Positions 4,245 to 6,555 of a stretch of 64,000 bases of DNA are shown in pieces (the first letter of the stretch is position 1; every line of letters starts with the position of its first letter). The notes below the pieces were generated by a model, which searched no databases, was not told the origin of the DNA, and saw nothing but the letters and a program-made list of their open reading frames with translations. The stretch is from Agrobacterium tumefaciens (GTDB taxonomy: Bacteria > Pseudomonadota > Alphaproteobacteria > Rhizobiales > Rhizobiaceae). A program made the translations under genes and the position numbers. The DNA is taken from NCBI RefSeq assembly GCF_005221325.1, contig NZ_CP039891.1, positions 62,001 through 126,000 of the forward strand, in the 5' to 3' direction.

Positions 4245-4268
4245 CTAGGCCGTAGACTCATAAGCCCG
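4245..4268 (+). repeat. Left terminal inverted repeat of the IS
   Basis: Starts CTAGGCCGTAGACTCATAA. It matches the right repeat at 16 of the first 19 positions. The transposase stop codon TAG (minus strand) lies inside the CTAG, so the coding region runs right to the element edge. Confidence 0.8.
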
Positions 4269-5011
4269 CAGCCACAGGCGCATTGACGCCAACTGGACCA
4301 TGGCGAGGAAGTTTTCCGCCAGCTTATCGTAGCGGGTAGCGACCCGACGAAAGTGCTTCAGCTTGGAGAAGAACCGCTCGATCAGGTTCCGTTCGCGATA
4401 TAGCCATGAGCTGAAGTACGGTTTTGACCTACGGTTTGCCTTGGGCGGAATATTGGCGAACGCCCCCTTCTCGCGGAGAGACGCCCGGATGCGATCGGCA
4501 TCATAGGCCTTGTCAGCGAGCACGATGGTTCCGGCACCCACATGGTCAAGCAGACCGTCAGCCGCTTGCCCGTCGTGGCTTTGCCCAGCGGTTAGGCTCA
4601 GCCTGATCGGGAGACCTTGCCCATCGACGACCGCGTGGATTTTGGTCGTGAGCCCGCCTCGGGAACGGCCGAGACAATGATCTCGATCCCCCTTTTTGCC
4701 GTCGCAGCCTGCTGGTGGGCGCGAACGGAAGTGCTGTCGATCATCTGGATGTCGCCATCATGGGCAGCGGTGATGGCGTCCATCATTCGGTCCCAGACGC
4801 CTGCTTTCCGCCATCGTATGAATCGGTTGTAGCAGGTGGTTCGCGGACCATAGCGTTCGGGCAGGTCGCGCCACGGCGCACCGGATCGTAGCACCCAGAA
4901 GATTCCATTCAGCACGCGACGGTCATCGACGCGCGGCACCCCTCTTGGCTTGTTGGGTAAAAGTGGCTCAATCACGCGCCATTCAAAATCGGTCAAGTCA
5001 TATCGGCTCAT
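4245..5011 (-). CDS. IS5-family DDE transposase, two frames joined by a -1 frameshift
   Basis: Frame A runs from the ATG at 5011 and stops near 4598. It has the IS5 N-terminal domain (LTDFEWRVIEPLLP) and the first catalytic Asp in MIDSTSVRAH. Frame B continues to 4245 with GLTTKIHAVVDG, the second Asp in ADKAYD and the catalytic Glu in RNLIERFFSKLKHF. The frames meet at a run of five A and five G on the coding strand (complement of 4688-4697); re-reading one base there gives a fused protein of about 255 residues. This is the usual arrangement in the IS427 group, where slippage makes the active enzyme, so the two frames are not evidence of decay. All three DDE residues are present. Confidence 0.88.
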
Positions 5012-5040
5012 GCTGGTGCTGAATCAGCTTTTGATCTGTA

Positions 5041-5490
5041 ATGGAAGCCGTCATCATTCAGGAAAGCGAAAGTGGAGGCCGCGTGCTGCAAAATCGAGAA
5101 TGGCATAAGGTCGATGGAGCCTCCGCAGACGCAATCGCCTCGCTCAAATCGCTGGCTCCGGTCGATCTTCCTGAGAGTTATTACGCATTGCTGACTTTCA
5201 GCAATGGCGGGGAAGGACCGCTAGCGGTTCAGCCGCTTTGGTTCCAACTCTATCCCGCCGAGGAAGCTGCTCAGATTGAACGGGACGGGACTTTCCGAGA
5301 GTTTTTCCGGGGTTTGTTCGTGATCGGCGGCAACGGTAGCGGCGAAGCCGTGGCATTCGACTTGCGGGAAAATGCGCCATATCCCCTCGTCGCATTCGAC
5401 ATGACCAACGTCGACCTGGAAGAGAGCCTAAGACCGATAGCGCCATCCTTCGATGTAGCGCTGGATTTGATCGGTCGAGACAATCAGTAA
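5041..5490 (+). CDS. SMI1/KNR4 (SUKH)-like protein, IS passenger
   Basis: 149 residues without signal peptide or membrane segment. The family features are the central LPESYYALLTFSNGGEG segment (about residues 43-60), a hydrophobic strand FVIGGNGSGEAVAFD, and the late PYPLVAFDM block. SUKH proteins are often immunity partners of polymorphic toxins or of contact-dependent inhibition systems, but many are orphans, and no toxin gene is seen here. The gene starts 29 bases from the transposase start on the opposite strand and ends 28 bases before the IS right repeat. The ATG at 5041 has no good ribosome site; a GTG at 5083 preceded by GGAGG would give about 135 residues and may be the true start. 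Confidence 0.72.
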   Translation: MEAVIIQESESGGRVLQNREWHKVDGASADAIASLKSLAPVDLPESYYALLTFSNGGEGPLAVQPLWFQLYPAEEAAQIERDGTFREFFRGLFVIGGNGSGEAVAFDLRENAPYPLVAFDMTNVDLEESLRPIAPSFDVALDLIGRDNQ

Positions 5491-5498
5491 TCCGGCAC

Positions 5499-5522
5499 CG
5501 CGTTTATGGGTTCACGGCCTAG
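5499..5522 (-). repeat. Right terminal inverted repeat of the IS
   Basis: Read on the minus strand it starts CTAGGCCGTGAACCCATAA, the partner of the left repeat. It lies just after the stop codon (5490) of the SUKH-like gene, which places that gene inside the element. Confidence 0.8.
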
Positions 5523-5564: not shown

Positions 5565-5891
5565 TTACTTCTCAGTGGCCAATTCACTGAAATTCTTGAT
5601 GTTGACCGAGGCGTCGGGAAACCTCGCCGTAATCTCCAACGTGCCACCTAATGCTTCGATATAGCGTCGCAGATTGCTGACATAAATATCGGCGCGCTGC
5701 TCCAGCTTTGCGACAGCCGGCTGCTTCACATGGAGTGCGCGTGCCACATCCTGCTGAGTTTTTTCACGGGCCACGCGCAGCTCGTGTAGCGCCATGTCTT
5801 CAAGAATTGCCTTGGTCGCTTCATCGTTGCGGGCACGGCGTTCTGGCGACATTCTGTTGCGCAAGTCGTTAAAGGAGCGATGTCCAGTCAT
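5565..5891 (-). CDS. HigA-like antitoxin, XRE-family helix-turn-helix
   Basis: 108 residues. The HTH lies at about residues 38-72 (REKTQQDVARALHVKQPAVAKLE) and is followed by an Arg/Tyr-rich helix and the IEALGGTLEI segment typical of plasmid-borne HigA/XRE antitoxins. The start codon overlaps the upstream toxin stop in an ATGA, so the two are translationally coupled, toxin first. The protein should neutralise the HigB-like partner and bind the palindromes upstream of the pair. It lies just right of the IS. Confidence 0.85.
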   Translation of the reverse strand: MTGHRSFNDLRNRMSPERRARNDEATKAILEDMALHELRVAREKTQQDVARALHVKQPAVAKLEQRADIYVSNLRRYIEALGGTLEITARFPDASVNIKNFSELATEK

Positions 5892-6247
5892 ATCAACCCT
5901 TCCTTCCCGATCTCGATCAGGTAATTGTCATATAGTCGATCAGCGACCGGAATCATGATTTCATAAAAGCGGTCGTCGCCGGTTTTATTTCCACCGACAA
6001 GCAAAATAGCAGTGCGACGCGGATCGAAAGCGTAGAATACCCGGTAGGGTTCGCCGCCGCTTTGAATCCGCAGTTCCCGCATATGTTCGTGCTTTGAACC
6101 TTCGATGCCGGATGAGTAAGGGAAGGGAAGTTGCGGTCCTTTGGCTTCTAGAAGCCCGACTACCCTTACGATATCGTCCTGAACGGCCTCGATCAGCGTC
6201 GTGTACCACTCACCAAACTCATCGGTATATTCAACGCTCCAACTCAT
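5888..6247 (-). CDS. HigB/RelE-like toxin (phage Gp49-like family)
   Basis: 119 residues from the ATG at 6247, chosen because GGAG lies seven bases upstream; a longer frame to 6364 would run through the operator. Family features are the N-terminal EYTDEFGEWYTTL segment, the basic central MRELRIQSGGEPYRVFYAFD block and the LLVGGNKTGDDRFYE strand. Members are ribosome-dependent or free mRNA endonucleases that slow growth when the antitoxin is lost. The toxin-before-antitoxin order is typical for higBA. On a transmissible replicon such pairs commonly stabilise inheritance; that role is inferred here. Confidence 0.82.
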   Translation of the reverse strand: MSWSVEYTDEFGEWYTTLIEAVQDDIVRVVGLLEAKGPQLPFPYSSGIEGSKHEHMRELRIQSGGEPYRVFYAFDPRRTAILLVGGNKTGDDRFYEIMIPVADRLYDNYLIEIGKEGLI

Positions 6248-6261
6248 CGGTGCTCCAAATG

Positions 6262-6306
6262 TATTCCATTTGTGGAATATTTCAAGCGATATTCCACAGA
6301 CGGAAT
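6262..6306. promoter_or_regulatory. Twin palindromic operator of the higBA-like pair
   Basis: Two inverted repeats with the pattern TTCC-N6-GGAA lie at 6264-6277 and 6292-6305, centres 28 bases apart. Both sit just upstream of the toxin start. The position suits autorepression by the antitoxin or the toxin-antitoxin complex. The palindromes are seen directly; binding is inferred. Confidence 0.65.
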
Positions 6307-6555
6307 AACTCGCCCCCTCGAGGTTGACAAGTGGAGATGGCGCTGAGCTGTTGGCGCCCACCACGATCGTTCCATCGAATTTGTGATCTGGTGCCTGCGT
6401 GAGAACGACGTCGGACCTCGATGCGGCTTCCGCAACCGTCCGGAATAATCCGCTTCACGCTGCATGCGAGCCGTCTCCAGCAGTTATGGGTGCAGTCCTC
6501 CTTTCCGGTTCGCTCTTCAACCCCGCAATGAAACGCAATCAACAGGAGATCCAGG

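Follow-up and report, generated by a model that had tools for sequence, protein, structure and literature searches.

In the portions of the literature available to us, insertion sequences (IS) of the IS427 group, such as those of Paracoccus (PMC3281130) and ISPssp5 (PMC6514802), are described as having a DUF4096/DDE transposase encoded in two frames, as is usual in this group (PMC3281130), together with imperfect ends of about 20 bp and a TA duplication. The elements of PMC3281130 measure 832-865 bp, and ISPssp5 is stated, in the accessible text of its report, to be without a passenger gene (PMC6514802). Transporter IS (tIS), according to the accessible accounts (PMC3129680, PMC7986276, PMC9330008), hold inside a single IS a gene that is unrelated to transposition and that moves together with it; in these accounts, a single member of the IS6 family is reported with such a passenger. 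The rAID systems of Bacteroidales are presented, in the accessible part of PMC12247911, as orphan immunity genes (with SUKH among them) that are mobile or linked to a recombinase, in the form of a co-oriented gene array with a tyrosine recombinase, and SUKH orphan immunity proteins are described there as shielding Bacteroidales against a T6SS effector. SUKH proteins make up the broadest immunity superfamily of polymorphic toxins according to the available part of PMC3482391. The yeast Knr4 is an example of a SUKH protein outside immunity. Integron gene cassettes are small single genes that can be exchanged and whose function is mostly unknown.

The locus that we analyzed lies in a 64,000-nucleotide stretch of Agrobacterium tumefaciens DNA (contig NZ_CP039891.1, positions 62,001 to 126,000; hereafter the window), and its features are those of an IS427-group IS combined with those of a transporter IS. 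The original prediction had proposed an IS5-family element carrying a SUKH gene inside its inverted repeats, and a 149-aa ORF matching Pfam SMI1_KNR4 does lie there. The element, of the IS5/IS427 type, spans positions 4248-5519 of the window (1272 bp) with a TA duplication on either side, and the features of the locus are the following:

4245..4541, minus strand: transposase frame 2, DDE domain (Pfam DDE_Tnp_1_2 4.6e-11, DDE_Tnp_1 3.4e-9)
4246..4247, no strand: left TA copy of the target duplication (one TA alone where relatives have the site empty: NC_022536, NZ_CP081988 and CP039919)
4248..4268, plus strand: left inverted repeat, beside the transposase stop (19/24 match; same element start in the chromosomal copy)
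4598..5011, minus strand: transposase frame 1, DUF4096 (Pfam DUF4096 3.1e-31)
4688..4697, minus strand: A5G5 run, candidate frameshift site between the transposase frames (read from the sequence)
5012..5049, minus strand: conserved stretch upstream of the transposase start, of the CTGAATCA-N15-GAAAGC type (78 elements side by side)
5041..5490, plus strand: cargo SUKH-1 (SMI1/KNR4) gene (Pfam, homologue lengths and alignment, structure model and its matches)
5499..5519, minus strand: right inverted repeat, cargo side (19-bp pattern 5503-5521, TA included, which the chromosomal copy shares)
5520..5521, no strand: right TA copy of the target duplication (chromosomal copy and empty sites)

RefSeq names the transposase as belonging to the IS427 family, and the Pfam matches to DUF4096 and DDE domains, the inverted repeats and the 2-bp TA duplication are all those of this group. 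At 1272 bp with a cargo slot, the element differs from the 0.83-0.87 kb of the IS427 group because of its cargo, its length being descriptive rather than defining. Its two ends are identical at 19/24 positions (flanking CTA counted in), as originally read; within the 64-kb window, this level of match to the left end is reached at these two places only, and 200 mononucleotide shuffles of the window gave a mean of 0 such places. CTAG had also been noticed at both ends, and here only the TA part stood: a CTAG duplication was rejected because TA alone is duplicated when judged from empty sites and from a chromosomal copy, whose left flank reads TTA and whose right flank reads TAG. Among the relatives described below, TA occurs at both ends in a Y-TA-R context in 63/65 elements with both ends readable, and C or T followed by TA is found at the left flank of 64/65. 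Since a YTA target makes the left flank read TAG or TAA on the transposase strand, this target seems to supply the stop codon of transposase frame 2, a frame without its own stop; in the window and in locus L002, that codon lies in the flank and is made with the target TA.

The proposal that the IS and the SUKH gene form one mobile unit was borne out by genome comparisons. When the exact 1.28-kb unit was looked for, a second copy was found on another replicon of the same genome (contig C1), identical over window positions 4246-5522 with unrelated flanks, the shared sequence stopping at TA on both sides bar one matching base beyond. Empty target sites with a single TA were found as well, at the plasmid site (NC_022536, NZ_CP081988 and CP039919) and at the chromosomal site (L139-L142; 4 viewed of 11 related sites), and they contain neither the SUKH gene nor the transposase, which does not fit a resident SUKH gene at an IS-free site. 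The unit also occupies further sites in A. arsenijevicii (L008) and A. cavarae (L009), it is present in plasmid NZ_CP116691 with the same flanks as in the window, and the element is found at 100% identity in plasmid NZ_CP039900 (pAtCFBP5877b). The tally of the unit comes to 5 copies at 4 sites in 3 Agrobacterium species, and the SUKH gene is inside each time, as had been expected of independent insertions; in L002, L008 and L009, dS was 0.04-0.08 for the cargo and 0.03-0.04 for the transposase. The locus hence shows a passenger inside the ends (SUKH-1) and, by comparison with the second copy and the empty sites, movement of the whole unit, as in a tIS. No second transposase, as in a composite transposon, was seen among the 14 features of the surrounding 11.3-kb region. 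Immediately to the right of the element, an XRE-type regulator and a RelE/Gp49-type toxin form a pair (5565-6364, minus strand), and its left side is occupied by genes of ImuA-type, Y-family polymerase and error-prone polymerase proteins; the plasmid was typed as conjugative.

A genome search with transposase frame 1 gave 505 relatives, of which the best 80 were fetched, and the figures that follow describe these closest relatives rather than a fair sample. When sought within 1.4 kb of the transposase start with at most 4 mismatches, the right inverted repeat was present in 73/80 of them, at 40-42 bp from the transposase start in 4 (L039, L052, L053 and L056), at 166 bp in 1 and at 224-1307 bp in 68 (median 431). 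The short-slot relatives are about 0.83 kb long, with the left inverted repeat 766 bp before the start. No right end was found in 7/80 (L051, L054, L063, L067, L071, L075 and L087), 5 of which have a contig end within 111-368 bp. Complete plasmid records (11 of 13 non-identical matches read, H13 and H14 being left out; at most 5 mismatches) had a right end in 10/11: 8 with cargo and 2 empty (42 bp; L162 and L163), the last one being without a right end. Other copies of the transposase ending close to its start, one of the two findings that together would have refuted the original prediction, thus do exist among relatives, whereas no SUKH copy is of this kind (0/5).

When 78 elements were set side by side, their common parts were the transposase, the roughly 37 bp that precede its start and the 19-bp right end, and no further shared motif was seen among them. 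On this comparison, the stretch 5012..5049 is the inner border of the cargo slot, and the closest relatives form a clade with a variable slot. Cargo can be unrelated despite transposase regions up to 92% identical (L013 and L028), and single genomes carry several elements with differing cargo (L011, L034 and L040; L022, L032 and L041). Both cargo orientations occur (32 and 23 clusters), and the G+C content of the slot is 0.57 vs 0.62 for the transposase and flank, as expected of genes from another origin. Unlike what is reported for the IS6 family, most close relatives examined here carry a passenger, and it differs between elements. The pairing of SUKH with this IS stands, but its scope was understated in the original prediction, as it is one among dozens in a variable-slot clade. 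The exact right-end pattern was rare in two sets of genomes drawn regardless of the IS, with 4/385 alphaproteobacteria (own genome counted) and 6/390 genomes from the family of G359, and it was found in 16/20 genomes picked for holding the IS, a selected set that gives no prevalence. In the literature searched, which did not extend to ISfinder and subscription reviews, we found no description of a cargo-slot clade of this kind. Taken together, comparison of sequences establishes a mobile unit with exact ends, TA duplication, related empty sites and variable cargo.

To describe this cargo, 73 ORFs were hand-picked by strand and length and grouped by blastp into 55 clusters; some other slots may contain missed genes, and the picks in L012, L026, L031, L044, L046 and L086 are possibly degraded or wrong. 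A Pfam run covered 50 representatives, the window SUKH and alternative ORFs of L021 and L050. At gathering cut-offs, 10/50 representatives were named (DUF6968, GNAT, T6SS_Tdi1_C, DUF6980, Hfx_Cass5, DUF7919, Barstar, alpha/beta hydrolase, Imm53 and RraB), the window SUKH-1 being an eleventh named family, and 40/50 had no family. Recognised immunity or inhibitor families account for 4/52 representatives (SUKH, Tdi1, Barstar and Imm53, one per cluster), compared to 0/60 at E 1e-6 among control ORFs of 60-190 aa located beside elements, which were chosen by codon score and may include non-genes, and which contained two antitoxins of toxin-antitoxin pairs. The one-sided p value of this enrichment is 0.044, or 0.094 without the SUKH gene that started the study, which gives a weak hint, short of proof, that the cargo is enriched in immunity genes. 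The GNAT, alpha/beta hydrolase and RraB cargoes are not obviously immunity genes. Anti-phage cargo was considered and rejected, as 0/52 representatives matched a PADLOC family at E 0.001. Against NCBIfam, one member of the 52 matched in each of 27 families; the 25 matches listed were acetyltransferases and hydrolases, with no immunity family among them; one cargo member matched the acetyltransferase model PRK10514 at E 3.7e-73, and GNAT acetyltransferase cargo was seen in L036, L043 and L069. DUF6968, the most frequent cargo, was modeled with a pLDDT of 84, and this model had no PDB match at E < 0.001. A search for Tdi1 in the own genome gave no match, but as the control likewise matched nowhere, this negative carries no weight. 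The L013 cargo (250-555) belongs to Hfx_Cass5, a Pfam family of integron cassette proteins, which may possibly link integron cassettes with such elements.

Selection on the cargo could be estimated from 30 same-cargo pairs in 12 clusters, 43 single-member clusters being left out. Of these pairs, which share members and are hence non-independent, 28 yielded a dN/dS, and it was below 0.5 in 26/28, the exceptions being L019/L030 (0.69) and L081/L083 (1.26). Most cargo clusters with at least two members are thereby shown, at the level of these substitution ratios, to be constrained as proteins. The cargo of L086 is shortened. A quickly built tree of 77 transposases, with 54 states for the slot (an empty slot being one state, two degraded cargoes assigned by hand), required no fewer than 59 changes, six above the minimum; support reached at least 95 on 12/74 inner branches only. 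Close pairs show similar divergence of cargo and transposase, which indicates that the two travel together. Between the three DUF6968 groups, and also in L025/L070, L037/L084 and L044/L082, divergence of the cargo far exceeds that of the transposase, a pattern that fits independent recruitment of related genes; for related DUF6968 cargo, recruitment apparently took place repeatedly. The reverse, with the transposase more diverged than its cargo, was seen in L014/L033 (p 9e-4) and L035/L041 (p 0.009; neither value corrected for 30 comparisons), which fits a transfer of cargo between transposase lineages. Concerning how cargo may enter, two MITE-like elements of 269 bp without transposase were observed in Novosphingobium sp. 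SG919 (L124 1501-1769 and L137 1501-1769), each having an inverted pair of cargo-side right ends as its borders, and two matches on contig C5 of G1073, separated by 250 bp, suggest a third; the 269-bp elements may possibly be mobile right ends that give a hint on cargo entry. Another hint comes from L057, where a second left end and transposase of a same-kind element lie 144 bp into the slot of the first.

The ORF at 5041-5490 matches Pfam SMI1_KNR4/SUKH-1 at E 2e-10, with 41.8 bits vs a gathering cut-off of 25.4. Its native start is probably GTG 5083, giving 135 aa: many homologues are about 135 aa long and start at this position, residues 1-15 of the structure model have a pLDDT < 50, and ATG 5041 falls within the border motif that is common to elements of unrelated cargo. 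ATG 5041 was rejected as the likely native start on these three grounds. The divergent arrangement of the two genes had been read correctly, but the gap of about 29 bases between their starts becomes about 71 bases if GTG 5083 is the start. Folding the protein, as the original prediction had suggested, gave a model with a predicted SUKH fold, consistent with its structure matches, which include Knr4, FBXO3 and Syd. Matches to the window SUKH protein were found in 4/297 genomes of its family (3 of the 4 weak), in 3 plasmid records and in 5/29 genomes picked for holding the IS. The other suggested check, a search for SUKH-bound toxins in the same strains, identified no cognate toxin: no partner was identified in the genome, and no cognate toxin gene adjoins SUKH in the element, whose neighbours are polymerase and toxin-antitoxin genes. 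With no toxin gene adjoining it, SUKH as an immunity gene would be an orphan. Three distant SUKH genes were found outside elements, of which L157 alone follows a toxin-like ORF while L155 and L156 do not. In L157 (7-1851), whose genome also carries L049, a 476-aa ORF with an HNH-like C-terminus (judged by eye) and without any Pfam or PDB match ends 18 bp ahead of a SUKH-1 gene.

Could the inverted repeats be fortuitous, or the IS end beside its transposase start with SUKH as an ordinary resident? The six relatives with slots of 40-42 bp give this reading its ground, but a second copy that includes SUKH and stops at TA on both sides, empty sites without SUKH and the same right end bounding unrelated cargo in 68/80 relatives make it scarcely credible. 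Just as improbable is that a segmental duplication, or recombination between replicons, produced the two copies instead of transposition: their identity implies a recent event, for which other causes are conceivable from that fact alone, but the match stops at TA (one base beyond excepted), the flanks are unrelated, and relatives have both sites empty with a single TA. A somewhat less remote idea, still improbable, is that SUKH serves as an accessory transposition factor, a regulator or helper, rather than as a passenger; it adjoins the promoter region of the transposase and moves together with this gene, but close relatives of this transposase have unrelated genes or an empty slot in its place.

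That the slot merely holds randomly trapped DNA of no benefit, SUKH being a chance resident, is unlikely. Such DNA would suit a cargo that is extremely varied, inserted in both orientations, sometimes degraded (L086 and L012) and without a Pfam family at gathering level in 40/50 scanned representatives; against it stand the low dN/dS in 26/28 pairs, the apparently repeated recruitment of related DUF6968 cargo and a slot G+C (0.57 vs 0.62) as for genes of foreign origin. The rival that deserves most attention, although we consider it unlikely as well, is a functional SUKH cargo with a task other than immunity to competitor toxins, such as defence against phages or a different role in binding. 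Knr4, FBXO3 and Syd have folds of this type and no cognate toxin was identified here; on the other side, 0/52 cargo representatives match an anti-phage family, Barstar, Imm53 and Tdi1 were found in the same slot, and SUKH is, by the available part of PMC3482391, the broadest among the superfamilies of immunity to polymorphic toxins. We infer, with somewhat better than even confidence, that the window SUKH is most likely an orphan immunity gene that would shield its host from a neighbour's toxin. We hold with good confidence the wider reading that the unit is a transporter IS whose single-gene cargo can be exchanged and is in some cases an orphan immunity gene.

Under this transporter IS reading, the two-frame DDE transposase would act on two ends of about 21 bp, insert at YTAR and duplicate TA. 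It would require just these two ends, one abutting the transposase stop and the other lying beyond a permissive slot whose inner edge is some 37 bp ahead of the transposase start and that would tolerate from 40 bp to 1.3 kb, so that slot content of any kind may move along with the element. This content is a single SUKH-1 gene here and dozens of other small genes elsewhere in the clade, and selection for useful cargo may aid the spread of the element. More tentatively, and with a little less than even confidence, we propose that this alphaproteobacterial IS427 clade is a general gene-capsule platform, with a fixed transposase module, a right end of about 20 bp and, between them, a slot for one interchangeable gene; a capture process not yet described would swap this gene among elements, and selection would fill the slots largely with genes for orphan immunity and similar survival functions.

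Like the rAID systems, the element would make orphan immunity genes mobile, SUKH included, but it consists of a DDE transposase and one cargo gene and not of the tyrosine recombinase and co-oriented array described in the accessible part of PMC12247911. Like integron cassettes, its cargoes are small, exchangeable single genes, but the element showed no integron integrase; if the gene-capsule reading is true, it would resemble a one-cassette integron made from an insertion sequence. Among the smallest autonomous mobile elements there would then be a clade with a selected gene as its routine load, and its slot would offer a ready list of small unknown genes as candidate antidotes. Antidotes to competitor toxins could in that case spread singly, without a toxin system, an array or an integron, which would help account for the orphan immunity genes that are scattered over chromosomes and plasmids.
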